A DNA stretch of 64,000 nucleotides. Source: Periplaneta americana (Eukaryota > Arthropoda > Insecta > Blattodea > Blattidae). The position numbers and the translations under genes were made by a program. The DNA is taken from positions 64,424,001 through 64,488,000 of the forward strand of contig NC_091124.1 of NCBI RefSeq assembly GCF_040183065.1. The letters are read 5' to 3'. Within the stretch, counting starts at the first letter, position 1, and every line of letters begins with the position of its first letter. The notes below the pieces were generated by a model, which saw only the letters and a list, made by a program, of their open reading frames with translations, had not been told where the DNA came from and made no database searches. Positions 4,301 to 64,000 of the stretch are shown here, one piece after another.

Positions 4301-7300
4301 GTCATAATAATATGTCTGTATAAATATTGAATGCTTAAATATCTATTTTATAGAGCAAATTTCAAATTTAATGTTCTGTTTCAGTATAAAATAAACTTCT
4401 CTAATCGCACTTTAGACATCACATTTATATGCAGACACATGTTTTGTTTGATCTCACACATGATATGCAAAGTGGGACCGAAGAATGTTTCGCATTCTTA
4501 TAAGTTCGTATGTAAAGTTTTATAGTGCACATATTATCAATTCGCTTGTTGTGGCATATAACAGGAATACAGGTTTAAACATCCATATTTTAAGGTGAAT
4601 ATGAACGTATCATATATCCAGCTTGTGACAACATGAAAATGTATGATGGATATTGCGTCACTACTTTGTCATGTACTGACTGAATCATCTTGGAAACGAG
4701 CTATTAGCGAGAGCGTGAAGGAGGCCACTAATTCCAGTTCAAAGTGTCAGCTCGGAAATATTGCCGTTATTAATTTGAATTTTTATTTTTAAAAATGCAA
4801 CATCTTTTATTAGTTTCAATGACATATTTATCTTTAGAGGCATACTCTGTGTTGTTTGGGTAAAGGGAGATAATCATAAAAATAAGTTTGGAGATAAATG
4901 GAAATTAAACTTCGGAACCTTACTGCAAATAATTTTCTAGACAAATAAAACGCATCAAATGCTAGTAATCTTTTTATTTTTGCACATTCATTTGTATAAT
5001 TTAACTTGTGTGTTCATCTGGAGAACAAAATTCAATCTGCACAAAAAAAGACAACACAGATATAAGTTCGTATTTCTTTGATTTTAATTGCACATATTTT
5101 TCATTTTTTAAACTATATTTTGTGCATAAAAATTGTATGTCTACTCATCATTATCCATCGTCATCATAATCGCCACCACCACCACCATCACAATCTTAAA
5201 GCGTCAGTGCTAATACACTATCTACCAAAAAGTAATTGGGCACTGTTTTTGCCTCTTTAGAACCTCGTGGAATCATCTCTTGTTGCTATAACAGCAGCCA
5301 CCCTGTCAGGCAAGGCATGCTTTCCACTAGTTTGTGTAGGATATCCACTGGAATGCATCGCCATTCCTCTTGCAACATGGCACTCAGTTGGACAATGGAA
5401 GTTGGCCCCATGTTTCGGCGGCTATTACGCAGTGGTATGCAGACAGTAATGCTCACCGGTTAGACTGACCTGCATAGAATCCTGATCTCAATCCCATTGG
5501 GCACCTTTGAGATGAATTGGACCGGTGATTGAGGTCTCGGAAGATGCGGCCAACTTACATTGTCCAACTGAGTGCCATGTTACAAGAGGAATGGCGACGC
5601 ATTCCAGTGGATAACCTACACAAACAAGTGGAGAGCATGCCTGACAGGGTGGCTGCTGTTATAGCAATAAGAGGTGGTACCACGAGGTTCTAAAGGGGCA
5701 AAAACGGTGCACAATTACCTTTTAGTAGATAGTGTATAAGACCTATAGAATACAATAAATGAAATTAAATGAAAACCGTCACTTCCACCACGTCGTCATC
5801 ATCTTTCAAAGATGTTTTTTTTTTTTCACTGTCGTCTTTTTTTTTTTTTTTCAAAATTCTTTCTTTACTCTATGCATTTTGTGACATGTTGTATCCGACG
5901 TGTTCTTAATCTTGCTGGATCTGTGTACTGTTGTTTCATTTCTAAACCTAATTTGAAAATCGTTTCTTTTTCATCTGTTTTCCTCTCCTTGTTATGACAT
6001 TCTGACGTTTTATATAGATTATGAATACTAATATGCAGATAATCTATTGTGGCATGTGAGCATGCGAATCTTCGCCAATATATGTAATAATAAGTTTCTA
6101 TTCACCCTGTCGAAAGACCTTTTTTAATCAACAAATGCCAGATATGATACTTGATACTATATATCTGAATTGTAATGACTAAAGAGTTCAGATGTTATAA
6201 TGTAGTTATGGTAAAGTAAAATATTGTATTTAACTTGTATAATATAGATATTACATAATCTTTTACTTACAGATGTAAAAATTGAAAGTTCTTTTCAATT
6301 GATTTGGGGCCAGTGTCACACATTTAATGCACTTATCCAAACCACGTCATCTGGTAAAGAGAAAGGATATTCTATAATATTGTATAAGAAAGATGCTTCT
6401 TATAATCGCACGGAAGGTGAACCAGAAGAAGGCTGGTATGTCTATGTACACCCAGAAGCAAACATTTGGACAGGTACACAGAACAAAAGTCATGTTTTTT
6501 TTTTCATAATATGTAATTTAAAGTCATGTATTTTATAGATTAATTTAAGTGTAGTTTTAGTTTTAGATTAGATTAAACCGTTTGATGCACATAAAGTAAT
6601 TATATGTTATAGTTATGAAGTCATAGAGTGATTGTGGAAGGAAGTGTTAGGGGGAAAAAAAAGAGGAAACATTGTTATTAAGGTAAGCGTTCACTACATC
6701 ATATCGCACTCATCGGACGAATCCCACGGATCGGAAAAAGACTATCTTTGCTGTAATTGTTATATAACCGCGTTCACTACATCGTATCGCCCGCATCGTC
6801 TCTCGGCAAATCCGTCCACGTTTCTCAGATGAGCAACTTATCCGATGTGTGCGATCATGGCCTTCTTTAATAAATAAATTTTAATTGCTCAACTGTTACT
6901 ATTATGTTGTGCCATGTTCAGTGTCGCGCCAAAATGGCAGACGGAAAACTTATTTCGCTTGTAAAAAACTACGAAGAATTATATAATTTGAGGCATTCCC
7001 ATTACAGTAATCAAGTCGTTTCTTACATATATATATATATATATATAACCAATATTTCTTTCGTTTCTTCCTCTTCTATTAGGACGCATTAAGCAATTAC
7101 AAATTCTTAATCGCTAACAGTCATAATTACCGGTAATAGACCTAACCTCAACTCCTCTGTTTTCAGCTATGTCAATATCGTACGACCTCATATTTCAAAC
7201 AGCTGACAGAGGAATCCGATGAGGCGATGAGGTGAGCCGTTGCAGTGAACGCACTGCGATTCGTACGAGGAGTGCGATACGATGTAGTGAACGCTTACCT

Positions 7301-14273: not shown

Positions 14274-17200
14274 TTTTATTTTCGCTGGCAGAGTTAAGGC
14301 CATAAGGCCTTCTCTTCCACTCAACCAGCCTTAATCAATACAATACATAAATTTAAATTACAAATATTTTCACTACACTTAAAAGGTTCTCCAGCAATAA
14401 TCTTCACTACACATTTATTTAAATTTAGATAAATCTATAAGGTAAAGTAGTAACTTAATTTATGAGCTAATTTAATTCAATGAATTATAATTAATTTAAT
14501 ATTTGAGATAGCTAGTAAAATGATGAAAATTAATTTAATATAAGCTTACTAGGACTATGTTACAGGGAGAATATATATATTTCTATTTCTATAATGAGAA
14601 TATTAATGTAATTGTCATTAGAGGTTTTGTAAATCTATTTAGAGAAATTAAAGATAATAATAATAAGAATGGACAGATGTTAGTTTCATTATAAGTAACA
14701 AATATTAATCAGCAATTCATCTGTTAAGTAAGAATTTATGTAATTTTGACCTAAATGAAGCTATTGTCCAACAACCCCTTATATCACTCGGAAGCGAGTT
14801 CCAATTTCTAGCAACTGAAACTGTATAGGATGAAGAATATAAAGATGTCTTGTGGTAGGGTATAATGAGTAAATTGTTATAATGAGATCTTGTACTTAGC
14901 TGATGATATGCGGATAAATTTTGAAAACGAGAAGCCAAATATATTGGGGTAGCGGTGCGCAGAATTTGAAACAAGAGAACAAGGGAATGCAGAGCTCGTC
15001 GATCGCTTAGCCTTAGCCAAGACAGAGTTTGGAAAGACGGGGAAACATGATCATACTTACGAATATTACAAATATAACGGACGCACGCATTATGCACACG
15101 TTGTAGCCTGTTGCTCAAATTTGCATTTAGATTATTTAATATAATATCGCAGTAGTCAAAGTGTGGCATCACGAGTGTTTGTACAAGGATTAATTTTAAT
15201 TTATCAGGAAGAAAGTTCTTCAGTCGCTTTAATGAGTGAATAATGGAAAATATTTTTTTGGAAGTGTGATTCACTTGTTCATTCCATTCCAGGTGACAAT
15301 CCATATAAATACCAAGGTTCTTCACGGTCGTACTGTATGGAATAGTAGTATTATTTACAATTATCGGTGGCAAATTTTGTTTGTCACACTTCGATCTTTG
15401 ATGTTCTATTAAGATTGCCTGCGATTTACTTGCATTTAAATTAAGTCCGTGGGTTTTCGACCATATGGATATAGAATTCAAGTCATCATTAACTTTAGTT
15501 ATGGCGTCATTTATGTAGTTAGGTCGAGTATGCAGATAGATTTGTATGTCGTCAGCATAAATATGGTGTCGGCAGGATGTTAGATTAGAAGAAATATCAT
15601 TAATATAAATAGAAAATAGTAAAGGTCCTAGGACAGAGCCTTGTGGTACGCCAGTCTTCGTGGTACGCCAAGTGGAATAACGATTATTAATAGACACGCA
15701 CTGTTGGCGTTCACGAAGATAGGAGTCCATCCACGCTAACGCATTATCAGAAAAATGCAGTACTCTTAATTTTGCAATTAGTAAGTCAACATCTACAGTG
15801 TCGAAGGCTTTGGAGTAGTCTAAAAGTGTTAGTATTGTGATCTGTCCTTTGTCTAAAGCTTCACGTATATCCTCAGTCACTTTAAGCAGTGCAGTCGATG
15901 TGCTGTGTCCCGTTCTGAAGCCTGATTGGTAAGGGTCAAGAATATTGTGAGTATTGAGGTAATCTGTCAGTTGTTTGTGCACAATTCTTTCCAAAGCTTT
16001 TGAGAGAACAGGAAGAATACTAATTGGTCTATAGTCATTAGGTGTTACAGGTAACTTAATTTTAGGAAGGGGACGAACAATAGCCTTTTTCCATATGTCT
16101 GGGTAATGTGAAGTCATTATAGATGCATTGAATATATGGGTTAGTGTCGGAAGAATTATGTCCATAATTTTGTTCAGAAGTTCTATATTTATATTGTCTA
16201 CTCCTTGCGATTTTGACTTGATGCGCTTTAGTGCTGATTTTACGTCAGAAGGTGTTATGTAGGAAAAGAAGAACTTGTCTCGTGCTGGAGGGCTGTGTGT
16301 TTTATTCTAGAAGAGAATGTACAGTAGTGACAAAAAAAACCGGACCGACCATTGTAGCTGATTTCAGAGCCTTGTTCACTCCAGAGCACGATAGACTGGT
16401 AACTAAGACTTTCGTGGTTCGAATCCTGCCTGGAAAGGAAACTTTTTTTTTGTTCCTTATTCAAATTTATTCCCAATACTTTTCGATTGCAGCGATATTT
16501 TACTACTTAATTAACTTATTGTTCCCAGAACATGAATTTTACGAGCAATCGATAAGTATTGGGAATAAATATGAATAAGGAACAAAAAAAAGTTTCCTTC
16601 CCAGGCAGGATTCGAACCACGAAAGTCTTAGTTACCAGTCTATCGTGCTCTGGAGTGAACAAGGCTCTGAAATCAGCTACAAGAGTTGGTCCGGTCTTTT
16701 TTTACCTCTACTGTACATAGTTAATGTGGTATTTCCGCATAAAGAGATAGTAAATGAAGTTCAAATAATATAACTATAATGTCTGTATTTCGGAGAAGAG
16801 TCACTACGACTCAGCACATTCCCAACCCACATCGGCTGACTATACTAAGGTTTGCTGTGTATCCAGGTTTCGAGCAGGCAACCCTACTCCTTCCTGGACC
16901 AGTCACCTTCGTGTGTCATCAGTAGGTCTGTGACATTGGAGCATGTTTACAGTGAAAGGAAGTCAATTCACTACAGGATATACACAGAGTACGCAAGTGT
17001 ATCTGTGTACGGAGACGACACAACCGCCGCGGTACAGTTTATTCGAGTATACCGGTAATACAAACTGTCGTGAAGTGTAGTGCGCTCCGCAGTATGGCTC
17101 AGAAAGAAAGAAACACGTCTTGGAAACTAGAATATTTAGTTTCACAGTGTGGTGCAGATGTATTTTACATTTCAAATAACAATCTGTATTGTAAACTTTG

Positions 17201-20200: not shown

Positions 20201-20883
20201 TTTTGTTCATTCGGGTTATTAATTTACATTTTCTGACATTAAATTACACAAACTAAACAAATAACAGTTAGGTCCCTATCCGGAGTTTACGTAGGTCATT
20301 TTTGTGCGAAGATTTATCCCCAGATTAGCTCGCAAAGTACTGTATTGCACCGAAGTTCAGTATATTTGAGTTGTTCAGAGCAGAAGAGTAAGTCAAGAAT
20401 GGGTAATGAGGGTTGAAGTAAACATTCTGTAAAATACAGCGCAAAATAGCAGTTAATATTCACTGTATTTAAACTATTAGTAGTCAGTGGATAGCAAGAA
20501 CGACGTATTAATTGCTACTTTGCGCTGTATTTTACAGAATTTTTACTTTAAACCTCATTATCCAATTTTGACTTACACCACTTTTGCTCTGATCGGCTCA
20601 TTTGGTTGCTGCCGTCCTCCCCTCACCTGCTGCAAGATACACGGTGAAAGGTAGTTGAACTTAACCCACCCCCTTCAAGTCGCTGACTGCATGTGGTATG
20701 GGATGTTACTTATGCGGCGTTGAGGCATCTTGCAATTGCCGTCAGCGCTTTCGAAACACTTGTAACTATCCGTAAGTCCTATAATTTTTTTTATTTGACA
20801 AAACTTACTCTAAATAATGAGTTCTATGTATGGCTCCTGTCAATTAATGTACTATCTTACTTTCAACCCTGTGTGTGTCTATA

Positions 20884-40868: not shown

Positions 40869-43800
40869 ACTGTGCATTAAGAAAAGTAAAATTAAAAATT
40901 AATGATTTGTTTTTTTTTTATTATGTAATAGAGAGAACAGAAATTACATACCATATGTTTTAAATGTTATGTTATTTTTTTTTAGTTGGCTACCATGTCT
41001 TTATAACTTTATGTACGAAAACAAAGTGTTGTATTCTGTCCTTGTAGTCAACAGCTGTGTAATTACTAACATTAAGCTTTTGAGTTCTGTCCGCATGCAC
41101 AGCAGTTTTCCAAAATCGATTCGAATGTGCATTGCAGTGCCATCTATAGATAATAATGTGTACTATGTCATGCCTGTGAGTGCTCCAGTGTGAGCTGCAT
41201 GGTGTTATTTGTCTATGGTGAAGTGGGAGGGTACTGTACCGTTCGTTTGAACGACTCAACGACTCCGACTCATCACCACTGGTGACTGTTATTTCGGAAC
41301 TGTTATTTCGGAACTGTTCCGGGAAAAGAACAACTTCGCCCATCACTAGTTTTTGGGCTCATGTTCGGTGCCCGTTGTACGATCCCACGAGAAACTTTAA
41401 ATCAACTTAAACAATTTAAAATTTCTGATGCAACGATTGATGCCATAGGATCTCATGTGTTAAAACCATCCTTAACTATAATTAGTAATCATTCGTACCC
41501 AACAAACTTTTATTGTAAATGATTCCCTATGTTTTCGTATCATTTATCTTAATGTTTTTTTTTTTTCCTTTCAAATTGTCACACAATTGTTTTTAATGAT
41601 TATTCTTTATGAATTGATTAGTAGGCCGATCTATTCGAACCCTTATTTAGGACGGCTTTTTTTGTTTAAAAAATTACTTGTCATGTTTGACAGGATCAAG
41701 ATAATGACACTTTGAAAGAACTTCTGAAGGCCAACATTGATAAAGAAGTACGCATGACTGTGTACAGCAGCAAGACGCAATCAGTGCGAGAAGTGACTAT
41801 TATTCCCAGCACGTCTTGGGGTGGCCAAGGACTCCTGGGAGTGAGCATTCGCTTCTGTTCTTTTGAAGGAGCCAACGAGAATGTGTGGCATGTACTGGTA
41901 AGTTAATGAAGATATGCATTAAAAATTTTGTGTATGATTTATTTCCATTTGTTACATGTTACATGCTTTGTGTAAATATATTAGAAAACACCATAGCCTA
42001 CAGTACATTTTGAGAGGAGATAAACAGCAAAATACACTTGAGCACACCACGTATAAAAATAAGATTATTGAGCGAGAATGGGAAGAAAAAGGAGTTCAAA
42101 CTTGGAAGCAGGGGCCAGAAGAATATATATCACTGCCATCTGGTGGGAACTATATGAAAACTGAATTTACACAAGTAAGGCCAAATTCAACAGTGTTCAT
42201 AAATGAAATATTAAGCATACAAAGAAATAATTTATTACAGTTGTATGAACACTTTTTGTAAAATTAAATTAAAATTAATATAATTAGTTAAAAACCAGAC
42301 ATGTTTCGGAGGAATGCTCCTCCATCTTCAGTGGCAATACCATGATACTGGTACAGATGTTCGACCGCGTATCGTGGCTTAAAGGAGACTCTAACAGTTC
42401 TATTTGGAGACGCATGTCGTGGTACTGGTTGACCAAATTTTCTTCTTCACTAGCCACCATAATTGAATTTACACAAGTAAGGTCAAATTCAACAGTGTTC
42501 ATAAATGAAATATTAAGCATACAAAGAAATAATTTATTACAGTTGTATGAATACTTTTTGTAAAATTAAATTAAAATTAATATAATCAGTTAAAAACCAG
42601 ACATGATACGCGGTCGAACATCTGTACCAGGGTCGTGGTATTGCCACTGAAGATGGAGGAGCATTCCTCCGAAACATGTCTGGTTTTTAACTGATTATAT
42701 TAATTTTAATTTAATTTTACAAAAAGTGTTCATACAGCTGTAATAAATTATTACTTTGTATGCTTAATATATGAAAACTGTTGTTAATCGACCTGAGCAA
42801 GATATCGAATACCACGGAATTTACAAAAACATAAAACCAATTTTTTTTAAATAAAATTAGAAAAAGAAACGACATTTTTAAAAAAACGGGACATGTAGCA
42901 TTCCATTGATGTTTTTCTCAGGTCACTAGACAGGCTGAAAAAAGGGACAATTCCATTAAAAACAGGACATTTGGTCACCCTAGTGTAATCCATAATCTTC
43001 TTATGTCTCCATAAGTGGCAGCATAGAAGCAGTATATTAAGGAGATGCTTATAATTTACAAGTGTTTTGTATTTCATTTTAGGAAGTCCACCCATCTTCC
43101 CCAGCAGAACTGGCTGGACTGAGAGCATTCTCTGATTACGTCATTGGTGCAGACTCTGTTCTCCATGAAAGTGAAGACTTGTTCACGCTGATTGAAGCTC
43201 ATGAGGGCCGTCCACTCAAACTGTATGTGTACAATACCAACGAGGATTCCTGTCGAGAGGTTTCAATAACACCAAATTCTTCTTGGGGTGGAGAGGGCAG
43301 GTTAGTATTTACTCAACTTTCGTTTATGGTCCATTCATGGCTCACTTATAGTATGTCTTGTAGAATTTGTGATGGAGAAACCAGCCAAAAATTCGGCAAA
43401 TTGTACGGTTTTCTCTACTAGCATTCTAATATTTAATGCCATTATTATATTACAGCCAAAAATTCGGCAAATTGTACGGTTTTCTCTACTAGCATTCTAA
43501 TATTTAATGCCATTATTATATTACAGCCAAAAATTCGGCAAATTGTACGGTTTTCTCTACTAGCATTCTAATATTTAATGCCATTATTATATTACAGCCA
43601 AAAATTCGGCAAATTGTACGGTTTTCTCTACTAGCATTCTAATATTTAATGCCATTATTATATTACAGCCAGAAATTCGGCAAATTGTACGGTTTTCTCT
43701 ACTAGCATTCTAATATTTAATGCCATTATTATATTACATCATCTCGTCTTCATGGTTTAAAAGGAATGTTACAGATTACAATGACATTTCTGCACTATAG

Positions 43801-49600: not shown

Positions 49601-52600
49601 GGTCACACGTCGCTACTTTTCGTGCAACTGGAGGTTGCGAGTCTGTTCACACACAAGGCGCTACTTTTGCAGCTGCAGTCATGCTGCAGGTTTCCATCTC
49701 CGTGTTGACTTCTCAATATACATTTTGTGGTTTTGTTCGCATTATTAATAAACTCATGCGAAAGCTTACTTATCTATTATTTGCTTTTCTGTCCTAACTA
49801 GTATTCAGAAATTGGCATTATTTTTACTATAAAGCTCTAAAAACGCGTGTATACTTAAATGATACCCAACAGCATATTCACGTAATCAATGTTAGCAACC
49901 CTCCTGTTTGAAACTACGCTACAGAAAATTAAAAAAGTGAATTATATCGTCAGCAAATATGCTCAAACTGTGTTTTGCATTTAATAACTGTTACAAATAA
50001 TTTATTCTCATCATATCTAACATTAAAATACATCCAAACAATAAAAGTATCATTGGCACATTTGGGTGGCAACACTGGTCGCAACCGCAGCAAAAATTTC
50101 AACAAAACCGATATAAAAAATGCTGCGGCTGCAACCCTGAGAACCCTGTTCACATGTCGCTACTTTTAAGCTGCGCGCAGCATGGAAAAGTAGCGAGCAG
50201 CAGGTTTGGCAGCTGCTACTTTTCGGGTTGCACCATTGTTCACACGTCGCAGTACAAGAGTTGCGCAATTTTTTGTACTGCATCGCTGCAAAAGTAGCGA
50301 CGTGTGACCGTACCTTAACAGTATTTGCAACTTGAAAAGTGTTGTTGGTATTGAGGATTGCATTCTACTTTTGGTTTTCATAAAGTGGATTTTGTCATTA
50401 AAATTTCACCAACAAATTAATTATTTGCAGCCTGGGTTGTGGTATTGGATACGGTTACCTTCATAGAATCCCAATTCGTGGTTCGCCAGTGCCAACAACA
50501 ACTCGAAATGTAACAAGACCACCACCACCACCACCTCCTACTACAGCCCAGTCACCAGTAGTGCAGCCTCCAGTTGTGGCACCTGTATCCTCAACTCAGG
50601 AAGGTCATCCAGTGACTAGTGAACCTTCTCACCCAGTCATAACTCCACAACAAACTGTAATTATATTAAATTTGTATCTACATAAAGATAGGATATAATA
50701 TTTTATTATAGTTTTTTATTATGCAGGTTAAATTTAGGATTTTTTAACGTCTTGTGTTCTTGTCCAATGGCATGAGGATTATTTGATCTGAATCATTTCC
50801 CTCCCTAGCTTCCCAGTGTTGTCACTGTGAGTCCAGTGCACTTCTTCAGATGGTTCATATTTTGCACATTTAACACAAGATTCTACACATTACTGAAAAA
50901 TGAACTTCAAGTAGAAAAAAAAAATTCTTTATTCTTTAGAGTTCATGTTTTAATGAACAGTTCATATTATTAACAGATTGTGTTGAACATTTTATGAAAT
51001 TAAGTTACGTGTTATGTGCTTGATAGTATAATATAATTTTGAAACTGCTTTATAAAAGAGAACATTATTAGTTATTATAAGAGATTAAGATCTATACATA
51101 TCAATGTTAACAGTATTCATAAACTGTTGTCGAAAATGGCTATAAAGTCATTTAAATATGGCTTGAATGCATTACAAAATGCAGGTAGTAGGCTATTGAT
51201 ATAAGGGAGAAGAGTTCGGCCGGCACCATGGATCGTGTCTTGGTGTAGCTCAGATGGAAAGAGCATGCAGAGCTGAGAAGTCCCGGGTTCGATACCCGGT
51301 GCAGAAACTAATTTTCTCAAATTAATAGATAAAGATCATTGAGCACATGTACAATACATGTGTGATGGAGGGTGGGTGTGTGTGCTTGCGTTTTTTTTGT
51401 GTTAGAGAGAGAGGGGAGAGAGAGACTCTTATCTGTATATGTGAGGATATATTTTTGAATATGCATACACAGTCAACTTCGGTTATAGTGAACCTCTGCA
51501 GACCAGCATATTGTGTTCACTACAGTGCATGAGGATTAAGTTGGCGTGATTTCTACTGTCCTTGTCTGAGGTCCTTGTCTACCGACTGCCACCAGATGTG
51601 ACGGGCAAGAGGTTTCCTTTTGTACAATTCTTGGAATGCCCTTTCTCCTCCCTTCTCCCTTCACACTTTTGCAAACCCAATTAGTGGATCTCTCAGTGGC
51701 GTCTCGGGGTTGTTCGAGTTCATTAGTTAGTAGTATCTTGTGAATAGTGAAGTGAGTTTGTATCTTTTTTTTATTGGGTTATTTTACGACGCTAAATCAA
51801 CATCTCAGGTTATTTAGCGTCTGAATGAAATGAAAGTGATAATGCCGGTGAAATGAGTCTGGGGTCCACCACCGAAAGTTACCCAGCATTTGCTCGTATT
51901 GGGTTGAGGGAAAACCTCGAAAAAAACCTCAACCAGGTAACTTGCCCCAACCGGGATTCGAACCTGGGCCACCTGGTTTCGCAGCCAGACGCGCTGACCG
52001 TTACTCCACAGGTGTGGACGAGTTTGTATCTTGTTGTACCAATTTAATATAATATAATTCACAAATTAAAATGTTTTCGGAGATACATGGTTTCACTGTT
52101 ACCTTAAATATTGTAATGAGTGTTGTGCTCTTGTATTTAATAATAATGGTAGGCAATATGGGAAAACGCGGGAAAGCCTTGAAGTCGGACGGTATGAACA
52201 TGGTTATTAATGCACATAAATTCTTTACTGGAGAATATGAGGCACTGAAATGCGGAAAACAAACAATATCTGTGCTGATTTTTATCGAAAGTACTGTTGC
52301 AGCGACACATATATCATCTCGTGGTGTTAACAGGATTAAAATAGAAAAAAAAAACAAAAAAACAAAAAACCAAAAGGAAGCGCTAGAAAGCAGAAGCGGA
52401 AGTGGAAGTGTGCTGCGAACTCCAGGAAAGAAACGCCCGAACAGAACTCTTAAAAAACGTGTGTAACATGTTAAAAATGAGCGCACTTGCAAAAGTGACG
52501 AAAGAAAATTGGAGGAAGCCCTGTGAACGCATAGAAAAAGTTGAAAAGTTTTATTGGGCGAAGGATGGGCTTGTAGATGGAAATTTATTATTCGTTCGTA

Positions 52601-59842: not shown

Positions 59843-61262
59843 ACAAGGGTAAGGGAGTTATCCTTTACCAAGAGTATACCTCAACAAATAAGTGGCTTTC
59901 TCAACTTTTGATGGTTTACTCTGTGATGAATGAATTACTGCCCTCAAAATGACTGTCAATGTATGCCCTGTGAGATCTTTGCCTGGAACATACCAAGATG
60001 GTAACCAATATCACTGATGCAACAGTAAGATTGAAACACTTGCGCATGTCTTGGTTGCCTGCCCTTATGATGAGATACTCCAAAACACAAGACATCATAA
60101 CATCCAGACAGTGATTGCCAGTGCCTTTCGAAAATATCATCATGCCACTTTTGAAGAAGTTCATGGGTTAGCTTAAGGTAGTTCTTGCCACAGAATTAAT
60201 GTGATTGACATTTCACTGGTTCTTTTACTGAATATATTGTCGACTCCACAATAGGAACTGAATCCTACAAAACTAGCAGAAGTCCGCATTGAAAAATGCA
60301 GAGAATATGAATCTATCTTTCCCTCTCGGTTAAAGAAAATGTATTCTAACCAACATAGAAGCGTTAAGGCTGATGATTGGAGCAAGAGGCACAATACCTT
60401 GCCTCTTTGTTGATTTTTGCCACTGATTTAATCTAAAAAAAAATGTTTGTGACTTCGCACTGTTTGCCTTTAAAGGATCAGTAAAAATTCTTAAGTCATC
60501 TATATACTTGATTGAATTGGTCGCTGCACTACCCTATGGCTTCCTTCCCTATTTTTGTGCCTGTTATCCAATTTCATTGTTGTATGACTTGAGGCTTTCC
60601 TGGCGTTTGATGTGGAATAACTCTTCTCGGGTTCTCAGCCAGGTGAGTTGGAGATTAGTTTCCAAACTTTCAACGGCTAGCTCTGCCATCTTCTTCAGGG
60701 AATGAAGTGACGTGGGACCATGTCTGGCGGTCGGGACTAGGAACTTGCTCCTGATTGGCCTGCAGCAGGAAGCCCTACTTTTGCATATATACCAGCTAGA
60801 CATGGTCCCACATCACTTCATTCCCTCAAGAAGATGGCAGAGCTAGCCGTCGAAAGCTTGGAAGCTAATCTTCAACTCACCTGGCTGAGAACCCGAGAAG
60901 AGTTATTCTACAATTTCATTGTTGTTACTAATTTTTCTAATATTTTGTATCTTGTGAGTTTCATTCTTTTTTAATATTTGGCATGTTTTGTGAATCAGAT
61001 AACTTCCTAGAGTAGAAAGCTGAAAGCTAAATAAATGTACACTTGGTGATACATGAAATATGTAATTTTTGTTACAGGTTTCCCACAACCTGCGCCACCA
61101 AGTATTCCGGGCATGCCAGTGACCACACCCATTTCTTTACCTGGCATGCCACCGATTACAGTTAGTGCCACATTACCATACACCACACTTGAAGGACTTC
61201 AAGTAACTGGAGGGAGTTCTGAGCCACAACCTGTTGCAGTACCTATTCCAGCTTCTCAGTAA
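34294..61262 (+). CDS. GORASP2: Golgi reassembly-stacking protein (GRASP55/65), 7 exons
   Basis: Join 34294-34356, 34446-34526, 41694-41897, 43083-43300, 50431-50656, 56657-56957 and 61078-61262 (1278 nt, 425 aa plus stop; all phases agree). Family role: a peripheral Golgi membrane protein that tethers cisternae by oligomerising through its PDZ1 domain. Seen: an N-terminal [20 protein letters not shown] with Gly2 available for N-myristoylation; PDZ1 (about 1-107) with [13 protein letters not shown]; and PDZ2 (about 108-205) with [15 protein letters not shown] at the domain boundary and [20 protein letters not shown] at its end. The Pro/Thr/Ser-rich tail contains [11 protein letters not shown] and an [16 protein letters not shown] repeat. 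The length fits the family (about 430-460 aa). Arthropods usually have one such gene (Grasp65 in flies). Introns carry most of the transposons of this half of the window. Confidence 0.95.
34446..34526 (+). CDS. GORASP2: GRASP exon 2
   Basis: Acceptor TTATTTGTAG, donor GTAAGT, 27 codons from [20 protein letters not shown] to NTRL. Phase 0 at both ends. Core of PDZ1. Confidence 0.93.
34527..35317. other. GRASP intron 2 start, nothing recognised
   Basis: AT-rich, no repeat partner seen. The rest of intron 2 (37801-38358, 38686-39357, 41357-41693) is likewise featureless to me between the annotated insertions. Confidence 0.35.
35318..35562 (-). repeat. tRNA-derived SINE, family A
   Basis: On the minus strand: a truncated tRNA-like head (GGTCAGCGCGTCTGGC, then GGATTCGAATCCCAG with a B box). 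The body follows with CAAGTTACCTGGTTGAGG, ACTTTCGGTGCTGGACC, ATTATCACCTTCATTTCATT and a short T-rich end. Nearly identical to 51763-52019. Confidence 0.85.
35571..35808 (+). repeat. MITE, family shared with 4847-5060
   Basis: AATTCTGTGGTGTT-type ends in inverted orientation flank a 238-bp body with GTATGTCTTTTTTTGTGCAG and CCAGATGAACACACGAG. It begins right beside the SINE at 35318-35562. Confidence 0.7.
36899..37342 (-). pseudogene. RTE-like retrotransposon C, 3' end
   Basis: The minus frame reads [59 protein letters not shown] and [12 protein letters not shown]. It then has a tail with TAAGTAAGTAAGTAAG. This is the C-terminus of a widespread insect endonuclease-reverse transcriptase element; it is 5'-truncated. 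Confidence 0.8.
37343..37556 (+). pseudogene. RTE-like retrotransposon C, inverted second copy
   Basis: The same 3' region on the opposite strand, head to head with 36899-37342: GAATCCAGAAATGCATATAG, AGACCTTTAGGAAGACCGAG, GGATTAATCTTGCACAGGAT and GGCTTATGTGAGGGCAGC. It has stops and indels. Confidence 0.75.
38373..38671 (+). mobile_element. tRNA-derived SINE, family D, with 14-bp TSD
   Basis: The tRNA-like head GGTAGCTCAGTTGGTAGAGC (A box) and GGGGTTCGATCCCAGGG (B box) is followed by a 200-bp body. The insertion is bounded by ACTTTTATTCTTCC at 38359-38372 and 38672-38685, an exact 14-bp duplication typical of LINE-mobilised elements. The T-rich 3' end (AACTTTTTTTACC) lies next to the right TSD. 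Confidence 0.92.
39358..39475. repeat. C/T-rich low-complexity tract
   Basis: Poly-G then pyrimidine-rich CTCTCTCCTCCCC-type sequence. Frames across it are low complexity. Confidence 0.8.
39476..39599 (-). mobile_element. short poly(A) retro-insertion with 11-bp TSD
   Basis: CATTGATACTC occurs at 39465-39475 and 39600-39610. The 124 bp between them start, on the + strand, with about 35 nt of nearly pure T (a poly(A) tail on the minus strand) followed by about 90 bp of non-repetitive sequence. This is the signature of a LINE-driven, 5'-truncated RNA insertion. The source RNA is unknown. Confidence 0.75.
39866..41348. mobile_element. hAT-type non-autonomous element, exact 8-bp TSD
   Basis: It begins TAGAGATGGGTAAAA and ends CGCCCATCACTA. 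GTTTTTGG flanks both sides (39858-39865 and 41349-41356). Internally it has a 135-bp direct repeat (39915-40049 and 40050-40184) rich in GGAACTGTT and TGTTCCGAC, also echoed at the right end (TATTTCGGAACTGTT). A (TTA)n run lies at 40810-40867. No transposase; 1483 bp. Confidence 0.88.
40810..40867. repeat. (TTA)n microsatellite
   Basis: About 19 uninterrupted TTA units inside the hAT-type element. Confidence 0.95.
41694..41897 (+). CDS. GORASP2: GRASP exon 3
   Basis: Acceptor CATGTTTGACAG, donor GTAAGT, 68 codons from [19 protein letters not shown] through [17 protein letters not shown] to ENVWHVL. Phase 0 at both ends. It carries the end of PDZ1 and the highly conserved GRASP linker into PDZ2. 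Confidence 0.96.
42295..42334 (-). ncRNA. hammerhead-ribozyme-like motif (foldback 1, left)
   Basis: Minus strand: stem I half CCA, CTGAAGA, one T, stem II GGAGGA-GCAT-TCCTCC (six perfect pairs), GAA, the self-complementary ACATGT as minimal stem III, C (cleavage position), then TGG completing stem I. The family consensus is CUGANGA..GAAA..UH; here there is one extra nucleotide between CUGANGA and stem II, so catalytic activity is uncertain. Confidence 0.5.
42644..42683 (+). ncRNA. hammerhead-ribozyme-like motif (foldback 1, right)
   Basis: Identical core to 42295-42334 on the opposite strand. CCA 42644-42646, CTGAAGA 42647-42653, stem II 42655-42660 with 42665-42670, GAAA from 42671, ACATGT 42674-42679, C 42680 and TGG 42681-42683. 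Confidence 0.5.
43083..43300 (+). CDS. GORASP2: GRASP exon 4
   Basis: Acceptor TTTCATTTTAG, donor GTTAGT. 72 codons plus two bases (AG) from [20 protein letters not shown] to NSSWGGEG. It holds most of PDZ2. The split codon AG+C gives Ser, as expected in GEGSLGCGIG. Confidence 0.96.
43384..43738 (+). repeat. five-unit 71-bp tandem array in GRASP intron 4
   Basis: The units start at 43384, 43455, 43526, 43597 and 43668 and are almost identical. Each boundary reads TATATTACAG|CCAAAAATTCGG, a splice-acceptor-like junction, and each unit contains CTCTACTAG. The array begins only 84 bp after the donor of exon 4. Confidence 0.95.
44200..45290 (-). pseudogene. CR1/L2-like retrotransposon, 5'-truncated second copy
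   Basis: Minus-strand fragments: 45289-44981 ([55 protein letters not shown]) and 44923-44726 ([29 protein letters not shown]). These correspond to the C-terminal region of the element at 14225-16258, with one frameshift between them. The conserved 3' block GGCCCTATGGCCTTAACTC follows, with an (ATTC)n end. A (TTA)n run lies at 44336-44384. Confidence 0.8.
45496..45752 (-). pseudogene. RTE-like retrotransposon 3' end
   Basis: The minus frame reads [20 protein letters not shown] and [16 protein letters not shown], then [24 protein letters not shown], and ends with the GGCAGAACACTATGAATGAA-type tail. This short piece has an intact frame, making it the cleanest copy of this C-terminus in the window. 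Confidence 0.85.
45753..46589. other. GRASP intron 4 DNA, nothing recognised
   Basis: AT-rich with no frames or repeats that I can support. The same is true of 43739-44199 and 47231-48440. Confidence 0.35.
46590..46656. repeat. (TATG)n(TA)n microsatellite
   Basis: GTATGTATG repeats followed by about 17 TA units. Confidence 0.95.
46880..47226. repeat. 347-bp MITE flanked by TTAA
   Basis: The ends GGGGACACTGAAC and the inverted GTTGAGTGTCCCC are flanked by TTAA at 46876-46879 and 47227-47230. This fits a TTAA-duplicating family (piggyBac- or Kolobok-like), but the TTAA could also be part of the TIR. Confidence 0.6.
48441..48822 (-). mobile_element. Harbinger-like remnant with a MADF exon (second family)
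   Basis: TIRs read GTAAAGGCCCGCTCTCACTT left and, inverted, GTAAAGGCCTGCTCCCACTT right, followed by AGCGGAATTGAA on both. On the minus strand about 48550-48480 encodes [20 protein letters not shown], the start of a MADF domain. It is unrelated in TIR sequence to 6681-7300 but has the same design: a MADF first exon retained and the transposase lost. Confidence 0.65.
48844..49582. mobile_element. TIR element split by a SINE
   Basis: The ends ATATACAGGTTGAACC and the inverted GGTTCAACCTGTATAT continue through GTGTCATTAATTTCAGGGGG. The left arm is interrupted at about 48898 and resumes at about 49187 (TTTCAAACAAAAAAGTG). The body is otherwise about 450 bp and non-coding. Confidence 0.75.
48899..49186 (+). 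repeat. SINE (family E) inside the TIR element
   Basis: It starts AGCCGCCATGGTGGTCTGG with a B-box-like GGGTCCGATTCCTGGCG. It ends with CAGTAAATTGGTCTCTTCAT, GGGTAAATGACG, ACCCATCGTTAG and TAATAAAA, a tail echoed at 57440-57520. AGGTAT occurs at both junctions (with degenerate bases before it), consistent with a target duplication. Confidence 0.65.
49595..50315. mobile_element. 721-bp Harbinger-type MITE, TAA duplication
   Basis: The ends AGGTACGGTCACACGTCGCT are perfectly inverted. TAA lies at 49592-49594 and 50316-50318. The subterminal GTCGCTACTTTT and TTCACAC(G/A)T blocks repeat several times. TAA/TTA duplication and the AGGTA start resemble the element at 6681-7300, pointing to the same superfamily. 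No coding. Confidence 0.75.
50431..50656 (+). CDS. GORASP2: GRASP exon 5
   Basis: Acceptor AATTATTTGCAG, donor GTAATT (a weaker match). One base completes Ser, then 75 codons: [20 protein letters not shown] closes PDZ2, followed by [20 protein letters not shown]. Phase 0 at the end. Confidence 0.93.
50657..51237. other. GRASP intron 5 start, nothing recognised
   Basis: AT-rich unique-looking DNA. Confidence 0.4.
51238..51310 (+). repeat. tRNA-like SINE head
   Basis: GGTGTAGCTCAGATGGAAAG (A box) and CCGGGTTCGATACCCGG (a T-arm with B box) at tRNA spacing. The acceptor and anticodon stems do not pair, so I read it as a SINE head rather than a tRNA gene. Confidence 0.6.
51763..52019 (-). repeat. 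tRNA-derived SINE, family A (nearly full)
   Basis: Minus strand: CACACCTGTGGAGTAACGGT (A box), GGTTCGAATCCCGGTTGGGG (B box), CAAGTTACCTGGTTGAGG, then ACTTTCGGTGGTGGACC and the CATTTCATTCAGACGC-AAATAACC tail. This is the most complete copy of the family in the window. Confidence 0.88.
52140..52450 (+). pseudogene. Tc1/mariner-type (DDE_3) transposase N-terminus
   Basis: The frame reads [47 protein letters not shown] (helix-turn-helix), then [13 protein letters not shown]. This is the N-terminal pattern of IS630-like transposases whose C-terminus is seen, in another copy, at 36151-36580. The DDE domain is absent here. Confidence 0.6.
53044..54064 (+). mobile_element. hAT element, internally deleted, with dimerisation domain
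   Basis: The left end TAGAGCCCGGATGTTAGGCA and the inverted right end TGCCTAAACATTTGCGCTCTA are TIRs. 53760-53943 encodes [20 protein letters not shown] and [12 protein letters not shown], the C-terminal hAT dimerisation motif (S-V-E-R-x-F-S). The rest of the transposase is missing. No 8-bp TSD is evident. Confidence 0.75.
54985..56544. mobile_element. P-like element, 7-bp TSD
   Basis: The ends TACAGTCTACTATATACAGT and, inverted, CACAGTCTAGTATATACAGT extend into GTCAC(G/A)AAG. ATATTAT flanks at 54978-54984 and 56545-56551. A 189-bp derivative lies at 11476-11664 with its own 7-bp duplication. A short frame with a GTGAGT donor (56130-56272) may be a first exon, but I cannot identify its domain. 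P elements duplicate 7-8 bp; the assignment rests on that and is tentative. Confidence 0.65.
56657..56957 (+). CDS. GORASP2: GRASP exon 6
   Basis: Acceptor GATCTTGTTGCAG, donor GTATGT. 100 codons plus one base, [20 protein letters not shown] through [19 protein letters not shown] to ATTLAT. Pro/Ala/Thr/Ser-rich C-terminal region with low conservation. The split codon with exon 7 gives Ser. Confidence 0.85.
57400..57860. repeat. SINE-like fragments (family E tail and a degenerate head)
   Basis: 57440-57520 (CGGTAAATTGGTCTACACAA, GGGTGAATGACG, ACCCACCATTAG) matches the tail of the SINE at 48899-49186. 57765-57850 has a degenerate head (CCCTGTGGCTCAGGTC, GGATTCTAGTG) and a similar body. Confidence 0.5.
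58077..58275 (+). repeat. tRNA-derived SINE, family A (plus strand)
   Basis: AAAGGTTAGCATGTCTGTCC, TTCAAATCCTGGTTGGG, CTGGGTAGCTTTCGACTCTG, ACTCATTTCACTGGCATT and TTCACTCAGAGGCTAAATAA. Diverged. Confidence 0.75.
58893..59694. mobile_element. hAT-type element with captured RT fragment, exact 8-bp TSD
   Basis: It begins TAGGGACTGGATTTTTATG and ends CATAAGAATCCGGCTCTA (inverted). ATTATGAT flanks at 58885-58892 and 59695-59702. Inside, 59250-59590 encodes [12 protein letters not shown], stop, [32 protein letters not shown] and [13 protein letters not shown], a reverse transcriptase fragment of another non-LTR family. Confidence 0.85.
59250..59590 (+). pseudogene. reverse transcriptase fragment inside hAT element
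   Basis: The YADD-type motif is preserved as Y-A-stop-A-D-D, followed by the post-motif [10 protein letters not shown] and a Y-L-G-L block. It has at least two stops. The family differs from the surrounding RTE-like copy (different residues around the Y-L-G block). Confidence 0.7.
59831..60618. other. GRASP intron 6 DNA, possible repeat remnants
   Basis: 59900-60420 contains short frames (for example minus 60164-59916) with no homology that I recognise. No repeat partner seen in the window. Confidence 0.35.
60656..60698 (-). ncRNA. hammerhead-ribozyme-like motif (foldback 2, left)
   Basis: Minus strand: CTGAAGA, one A, stem II GATGGC-AGAGCTA-GCCGTT, GAAA, stem III AGTTT-GG-AAACT (sharing its A with GAAA), then A at the cleavage position. 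The stem I flanks do not pair convincingly, so activity is doubtful. Confidence 0.45.
60825..60867 (+). ncRNA. hammerhead-ribozyme-like motif (foldback 2, right)
   Basis: Plus strand: CTCAAGA (one core substitution, G to C), one A, stem II GATGGC-AGAGCTA-GCCGTC, GAAA, stem III AGCTT-GG-AAGCT, then A. Compared with the left copy, stem III changes on both sides and stays paired. Confidence 0.4.
61078..61262 (+). CDS. GORASP2: GRASP exon 7 and stop
   Basis: Acceptor TTTTTGTTACAG. Two bases complete Ser, then [20 protein letters not shown] through [20 protein letters not shown] to [10 protein letters not shown] and TAA at 61260-61262. Proline-rich C-terminus typical of the family. Confidence 0.9.
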
Positions 61263-63433: not shown

Positions 63434-63528
63434 ATCTCAGGGCACACAATCGGGAGAATATGGAGGATGTGGAATCACTTCCCAGCCAAGCTCCTGGATA
63501 GTGTGTTCGCGTAGGCTTTCGCGGCTGG
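63434..63528 (-). pseudogene. mariner transposase fragment
   Basis: The minus frame reads LREHTIQELGWEVIPHPPYS followed by PDCVP. This is the region between the second and third catalytic residues of mariner-type transposases. Joined directly to the foldback to its right. Confidence 0.65.
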
Positions 63529-63585
63529 TGTACATGGTGTGTAAATAAGCTTCGGGGCTTCTACCGCGTTGTCTTGGTGTTGATG

Positions 63586-63625
63586 GCTGACGTTTCGACC
63601 GCTGTGTTGTGGTCATCTTCAGAGC
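63586..63625 (-). ncRNA. hammerhead-ribozyme-like motif (foldback 3)
   Basis: Minus strand: stem I half GCT, CTGAAGA, one T, stem II GACC-ACAACACAGC-GGTC, GAA, self-complementary ACGT as minimal stem III, C (cleavage position), then AGC completing stem I. GAAACGTC is the form I recall from Penelope-like elements. The partner copy at the far arm is cut by the window end. Confidence 0.5.
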
Positions 63626-63919
63626 AGTTGTTGGATAAGGAAATAGTCTGCGAGCTCGTATATATATATATAGTAGTCTCGATGGGGGGAGTACTTGCGG
63701 TGATAGGTCGTAGGTTCTCCTTCTGGCATCTGATTGGACCTTCATTGTCCAATCCGGTTGAGGTCTGTATGAAGGGGAGTATTCATATTATGAGGGCCAG
63801 TATTTAATATGAATACTCCCCTTCATACAGACCTCAACCGGATTGGACAACGAAGGACCAATCAGATGCCAGAAGGAGAACCTACGACCTATCACCGCAA
63901 GTACTCCCCGCCTCGAGAC

Positions 63920-63957
<38 letters not shown>

Positions 63958-64000
63958 GAGCTCGCAGACTATTTCCTTATCCAACAACTGCTCAGAAGAT
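63614..64000. mobile_element. foldback repeat 3 (long palindrome, cut by window end)
   Basis: The left arm 63614-63790 and right arm 63805-64000 are near-identical inverted copies around a 14-nt loop. They include TA microsatellites of different lengths (63659-63671 and 63924-63955). The palindrome continues past the window. Non-coding. Confidence 0.85.

Follow-up and report, generated by a model that had tools for sequence, protein, structure and literature searches.

A foldback repeat inside the GRASP gene of Periplaneta americana, with a hammerhead-ribozyme-like core in each arm, raised the question of what kind of element had brought the two cores there. The window, namely the whole stretch of 64,000 nucleotides analyzed here, had been described in a first-pass annotation that placed the foldback at 42161..42780. 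The sequence and the repeat search located a 604-bp insertion (family 1) at 42164-42767 within a GRASP intron. The foldback itself was thus confirmed, while its limits were corrected by the 13-bp target-site duplication TATATGAAAACTG that bounds the insertion at 42151-42163 and 42768-42780 (direct repeat D5; 2 of 93 control placements equaled it). The intron location also held, as the exons on either side matched GRASP55/65, a Golgi protein (Pfam PF04495), with E-values of 2.3e-28 and 5.2e-25.

The insertion has inverted arms at 42208-42379 and 42599-42770, each 172 nt long and 95% complementary to the other. Its right side is a single pLTR unit on the plus strand (unit C, 42606-42767) that has a short outer end without a tail. 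On the left, approximately 1.5 units are arranged in tandem on the minus strand with a period of 302 bp (direct repeat D1). The outer unit A (42164-42391) contains an intact ribozyme core and has a long outer end with the tail at 42164; its inner limit was placed at the start of GAGTCTCC, where several arms elsewhere in the genome begin. A linker of about 70 nt (42392-42462, minus strand; ATGGTGGCTAG...CTGTTA in sense) separates it from the inner unit B (about 42463-42605, minus strand), a 5'-truncated half-unit identified from D1 at the spacing of 302, with its inner end at unit position 158 in the blast comparison. Unit B starts 6 nt before the predicted cut and therefore contains no ribozyme core; its exact limits are blurred by the palindromic junction. 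The linker recurred, differing at its end, in two other genomic copies (L006 and L007 below), and may be what remains of a lost element body. The GC content is 34% and no long frame is present. An enzyme composed of RT and GIY-YIG domains would exceed the size of the 604-bp insertion.

The cores correspond to a 40-nt motif, CCACTGAAGATGGAGGAGCATTCCTCCGAAACATGTCTGG, with the layout CCA-CTGAAGA-T-GGAGGA-GCAT-TCCTCC-GAA-ACATGT-C-TGG. Exactly two copies exist in the window, both exact and antiparallel, at 42295-42334 (minus strand, unit A) and 42644-42683 (plus strand, unit C). No third copy was found in the window at three or fewer mismatches, and none of 100 shuffled sequences had any, which agreed with the earlier claim of paired cores, one per arm. 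All pairs proposed for stem I (CCA/TGG), the perfect 6-bp stem II (6 of 6) and the self-complementary stem III (ACATGT) actually form, and the one nucleotide (T) reported between CTGAAGA and stem II is seen in the family 1 cores. The cut in unit C, which we place by hammerhead numbering, would presumably fall between C42680 and T42681. An ATG is located at the boundary of CTGAAGA and stem II and opens a 13-codon frame ending with TGA (42653-42694, plus strand), with the predicted cut 28 nt from the A of this ATG.

The whole window was scanned with a descriptor consisting of the core, three stems and zero, one or two extra bases before stem II. Four matches were obtained, all with exactly one extra base; two of them come from opposite arms of a single insertion (units A, at 42331, and C), which leaves three independent elements. 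In the control, 2204 Markov-simulated windows gave 14 matches (three with no extra base, eight with one and three with two), and never two or more in one window. An earlier version of the descriptor, limited to loops of at most 8, picked up families 1 and 2 but not family 3; its control of 4088 simulated windows gave 16 matches, never two in one window. Family 3 came to light when the remaining foldbacks of the window were read, after which loops of 12 and two extra bases were permitted. The descriptor was thus loosened after family 3 had been seen, and the 2204-window simulations were performed with the same wide settings.

The two further elements are foldbacks unrelated to family 1 that have the same core with different stems; in each, as in family 1, stem III is palindromic, an ATG is present and there is a single extra nucleotide. 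Family 2 is a head-to-head pLTR-like pair at 60584-60910, delimited by inverted and direct repeats and by sequence. Its inverted repeat (60611-60728 and 60795-60912) is 93% complementary, the 15-base repeat CAATTTCATTGTTGT flanks it at 60569-60583 and 60911-60925 (direct repeat D2), and only the left arm is extended, by a tail of about 29 nt. The core of the left arm lies at 60661-60701 on the minus strand (descriptor match at 60698), with the ATG 26 nt before the predicted cut, and that of the right arm at 60822-60862 on the plus strand has a changed core base, with CTCAAGA replacing CTGAAGA. The family 3 foldback, at about 63495-64000 and 63615-64000, runs past the window end; its core is at 63586-63625 on the minus strand (descriptor match at 63622), with the ATG 28 nt before the predicted cut. 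Every family thus has its ATG where the core meets stem II, and the predicted cut follows 26 or 28 nt later. As to the frames that follow, family 2 has an open N-terminus of 35 residues (60584-60689, minus strand), and the family 3 frame starts at the ATG as MTTTQRSKRQ... and continues into GWEVIPHPPYSPD, which we take to resemble the end of a mariner transposase.

The comparison of the families also agreed with the first-pass description of a hammerhead-like core with a minimal palindromic stem III. CUGANGA, GAA, the A15.1-U16.1 pair and the NUH triplet were present, except in the right arm of family 2 with its CUCAAGA, the triplet being GUC in families 1 and 3 and UUU in the left arm of family 2. 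Stems I, II and III paired in all four cores compared when G-U was counted as a pair. The palindromic stem III was ACATGT in family 1, AGCT in family 2 (AGTT in one arm, giving one G-U) and ACGT in family 3. The pairing of the stems was checked element by element; the MAFFT alignments A1 and A2 misplaced parts of family 1, and no count rests on them.

The genome (3.23 Gb in 91 contigs) was searched for family 1 with a 101-base query. Forty of 790 candidates were scored, giving a lower bound of at least 63 matches that form at least 38 loci, 13 of which have a single match. Among the matches listed, 25 loci had multiple matches, and 23 of these were in minus-plus (head-to-head) order, one was plus-plus and one was minus-minus, with no tail-to-tail pair among these 25. 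The identity to the query was 94-100% among the matches listed, except for one at 84%. The eight best-scoring loci (L001-L008, L001 being the window's own copy) were fetched, and 13 of their 16 cores were intact by the descriptor, the broken ones being the minus-strand core of L002 and the first core of L006 (both by deletion) and the second core of L003, in which stem II is changed. Most cores are thus kept in these eight loci, but the copies are nearly identical, so that conservation within the family proves little about function or selection. No prior report of family 1 was found in the literature searched, a coverage that excludes most subscription papers.

The covariance search proposed with the first-pass annotation gave a negative outcome, as Rfam returned no hammerhead match in the window or in the eight loci, either at gathering scores or at E-values up to 10. 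An AdoCbl riboswitch match at 42572-42730 (21.9 bits against a gathering score of 50), which overlies the foldback, was dismissed. We also constructed a model, R1, from three sequences of families 2 and 3 only, with stem III left unpaired. Both window cores of family 1 ranked first among the matches not used in training, at 17.8 bits and an E-value of 0.028, although this is a modest test. When R1 was applied to the eight loci, each of the 13 intact cores scored 17.8 bits and the broken ones 13.1, 11.7 and 8.8 bits, while chance matches in these loci reached 10 bits.

In none of the three families does stem II directly follow CUGANGA, one extra nucleotide being present in each. The first-pass annotation had left two options for this base in family 1, a variant ribozyme or a decayed one. 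The former fits better than the latter, and the extra nucleotide is probably a variant rather than a sign of decay, judging from the sequences, because a single extra base recurs there in three elements of the window that are unrelated to one another. According to one paper, the known alignments accommodate one or two nucleotides at this position. The extra base is the U of the ATG in two families and the A just before G-ATG in the third, which suggests that it may be tied to the start codon. A coincidental core, or a ribozyme decayed by an inactivating insertion, would accord with the extra base, the absence of Rfam matches, the changed core base in family 2 and the three broken cores of family 1. 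Such an explanation was nevertheless considered very improbable in view of the four descriptor matches here against 14 in 2204 simulated windows, the presence of the extra base in all three families and the 13 of 16 family 1 cores that are intact.

Family 1 may have hammerhead activity, and its conditions were examined by energy calculation. In a single molecule, a hammerhead with a 1-bp stem III gave -3.6 kcal/mol, compared with -9.9 kcal/mol for stem II alone, and the energy model does not allow a 2-bp stem III within one molecule. Two bare cores gave -25.8 kcal/mol with stems II and III paired and stem I open, and the full double hammerhead gave -23.8 kcal/mol against -19.8 kcal/mol for two separate copies. 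Dimers are favored in these calculations, though the 3-bp stem I is weak. As a single molecule can barely close the palindromic stem III, the ribozyme alone should work poorly according to the model, and a dimer of sense copies or help from a protein should be needed. Folding of the whole insertion is predicted to join its two arms by base pairing (-309.9 kcal/mol). Since its two intact cores are antiparallel and the arms pair, a dimer in cis, and hence cutting of the GRASP pre-mRNA, is not expected from the window copy. The idea that the paired cores form a working pair was not supported, as the antiparallel cores are predicted to pair mutually and none of the eight fetched loci, including the window copy, holds two intact cores in one orientation. 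Same-strand matches occurred in two of the 25 multi-match loci among the matches listed, one of which was L003, where the second core is broken.

The kind of ribozyme seen here is already known from Penelope-like elements (PLEs). Minimal type I hammerheads of these elements were reportedly described by Cervera and De la Pena in 2014 and by Lunse et al. in 2017, the latter of whom are said to have observed their dimeric cleavage. The present cores resemble them in the core, in a very short or missing helix III, in a palindromic stem III that suits dimers and in the position within the pseudo-LTR. The one nucleotide between CUGANGA and stem II in the three families may set them apart.

The limits of the family 1 copies gave further information on their origin. 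In all eight loci the outer ends were unequal, one falling at unit position 245-255 and the second at 297-299, which gives the longer end a tail of 44-54 nt. These ends were measured after trimming at the duplication, or at the blast ends in the case of L003, which has no clear duplication, and a few bases at each outer end are assignable to either the unit or the duplication. Relative to the first base of the ATG, at unit position 136, the short end is at +110 to +120 and the long end at +162 to +164. Target-site duplications of 13-15 bp were found in seven of the eight loci (six exact and one with one mismatch), where 0-2 of 91-98 control placements per locus were equally good; in L003, by comparison, 13 of 93 controls were as good as the best candidate. 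The inner limits varied, and some loci held tandem units. Eight of 17 inner ends were clustered at unit positions 69-74, near GAGTCTCC at unit position 70. Termination of the cDNA at the ribozyme cut site was rejected, as none of the 17 inner ends was within 3 nt of position 164, the nearest, at a distance of 6 nt, belonging to unit B of the window copy.

These features bear on whether family 1 is a foldback or MITE-type DNA transposon, the arms being terminal inverted repeats moved by a transposase and the likeness to a hammerhead incidental. The long inverted arms and the near-constant length of the duplications would suit such an element. The outer ends are, however, unequal by 44-54 nt in every fetched locus and the termini do not match, the inner limits are variable with tandem units in some loci, and the same core is present in three unrelated foldbacks, which together make a DNA transposon hardly credible.

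The PLE anatomy, in contrast, is matched closely, and we therefore consider family 1 to be best read as a non-autonomous pLTR unit inserted by PLE machinery. Penelope of Adineta vaga has inverted head-to-head pLTRs, one of which may bear a 31-bp tail, together with palindromic junctions and, in several copies, duplications of 8-10 bp (PMC3846280). Family 1 shares with Pen2a_Av and the other Adineta vaga Penelope elements the inverted pLTRs, the tail on one side, the palindromic junction and a short duplication. It differs in the duplication length (about 13 bp against 8-10 bp), in the tail (44-54 nt, and about 29 nt in family 2, against 31 bp) and in the lack of a long ORF between the pLTRs. 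A second comparison was made with PAc, the Poseidon element of Anolis carolinensis, a full RT plus GIY-YIG element whose protein cuts and extends both target strands (PMC11167929). Reverse transcription of PAc starts at internal positions of the RNA, those 111-118 nt from the ORF start being the commonest; the 'tail' is the stretch that separates two such positions, and in vitro the main substrate was uncut RNA (PMC11167929). The likeness extends to the ORF beginning from stem II, to the predicted cut 26 nt from the ATG (26-28 nt in the three families), to the RT start at 111-118 nt (short end of family 1 at +110 to +120) and presumably to both target strands being cut and extended. In contrast to the full-length PAc, the family 1 frame has 13 codons and the element is non-autonomous as seen.

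It is highly probable that the family 1 insertion is a short non-autonomous PLE product composed of head-to-head 5'-truncated pLTRs, with a minimal type I hammerhead overlapping the ATG. The anatomy, arrangement, duplications, tail asymmetry and shared core were directly observed. The link to PLEs, previously drawn from the motif, now also rests on the anatomy of eight loci and the arrangement in at least 38. A PLE enzyme would have acted in trans. The transcript would begin near GAGTCTCC, approximately 94 nt upstream of the predicted cut, and reverse transcription would start from internal sites, which lie downstream of the ATG by 110-120 nt in the case of the short end and by 162-164 nt in that of the long, tailed end. 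Priming at both cut target strands would yield two cDNAs that join head to head, and a staggered target cut would leave the duplication of about 13 bp. The templates of the inserted cDNAs look uncut, as the cDNAs examined do not end at the predicted cut site. Self-priming on an antisense template, which PMC3846280 favors for palindromes, is a rival to priming on two strands. The PAc start site was described as the same for both strands (PMC11167929); without a strand difference in the start site, PAc does not predict the constant short-plus-long pairing of family 1. The many similar family 1 copies with clear ends and duplications could provide a record of PLE cDNA priming on two strands.

The tandem period of 302 bp, the 34% GC content and the absence of a long frame are also what would be expected of a metazoan non-LTR retrozyme, in which a self-cleaving unit of about 300 nt forms RNA circles that are copied and inserted as tandem repeats. 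The published monomers are about 300 bp in tandem, with GC below 45% and type I hammerheads (PMC7229834). Family 1 resembles these elements in its unit of about 300 bp, seen in tandem in the window copy, and in the low GC, the type I hammerhead and the lack of a long frame, but its ribozyme is minimal and its usual arrangement is head to head. Among the matches listed, 23 of 25 multi-match loci were head to head rather than tandem, and the eight of 17 inner ends clustered about 94 nt upstream of the cut are as expected of a linear transcript. The hammerhead is minimal rather than canonical, with a helix III palindrome that hardly closes in one molecule. A retrozyme of this type was thus regarded as quite improbable. 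A doubtful though somewhat more plausible form is a dwarf PLE turned retrozyme, that is, a 302-nt unit without a long frame that has a PLE-type ribozyme, depends on a PLE enzyme in trans and bears the insertion signature of that enzyme (head-to-head order, one tail, duplication of about 13 bp). If true, it would join two kinds of ribozyme-bearing elements linked so far mainly by co-occurrence. The constant combination of a short and a long end would then also imply that the two target strands are primed from different RNA sites, which was not seen in vitro by the PAc study.

The position of the ATG raises another explanation, in which the core is kept for coding, its bases specifying the N-terminus of a PLE protein, and catalysis plays no part. 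The presence of the ATG within the ribozyme in all three families agreed with this, as did the finding that insertion by PAc in vitro was unaffected by mutation of its ribozyme (PMC11167929). The stem sequences, however, differ between the families, while the pairing and CTGAAGA...GAAA are kept, save for one base in one arm. Pairing kept despite differing stem sequences is not explained by coding alone, and this explanation was considered unlikely. The role of hammerheads in PLEs was described as a mystery in PMC7761336. Three families within 64 kb, each with the ATG in the ribozyme and the extra core nucleotide, offer a natural set for comparing coding and catalysis.

Other repeats of the window were also inspected. 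The CTGANGA core was not found in the foldbacks at 5210-5740, 16317-16718 and 20367-20600, which were read through; the smaller inverted repeats of the window were covered by the whole-window descriptor scan only. The long foldback at 5210-5740 has arms that are 79% alike. The arms of that at 16317-16718 are 86% alike, and each contains GGTTCGAATCC or its complement. This sequence presumably resembles a tRNA B box, and the foldback is perhaps an inverted tRNA-derived pair. The sole Rfam match at gathering score in the window was a tRNA at 51943-52015 on the minus strand (29.5 bits against a cut-off of 29), which is likely a tRNA-derived repeat or pseudogene. An open frame of 482 aa at 14717-16165 on the minus strand resembles, by eye, a LINE reverse transcriptase. 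Directly after a GRASP exon, five tandem copies of a 71-bp unit, 99% alike, are located at 43382-43738, and these units contain the splice-acceptor-like sequence TTATATTACAG.
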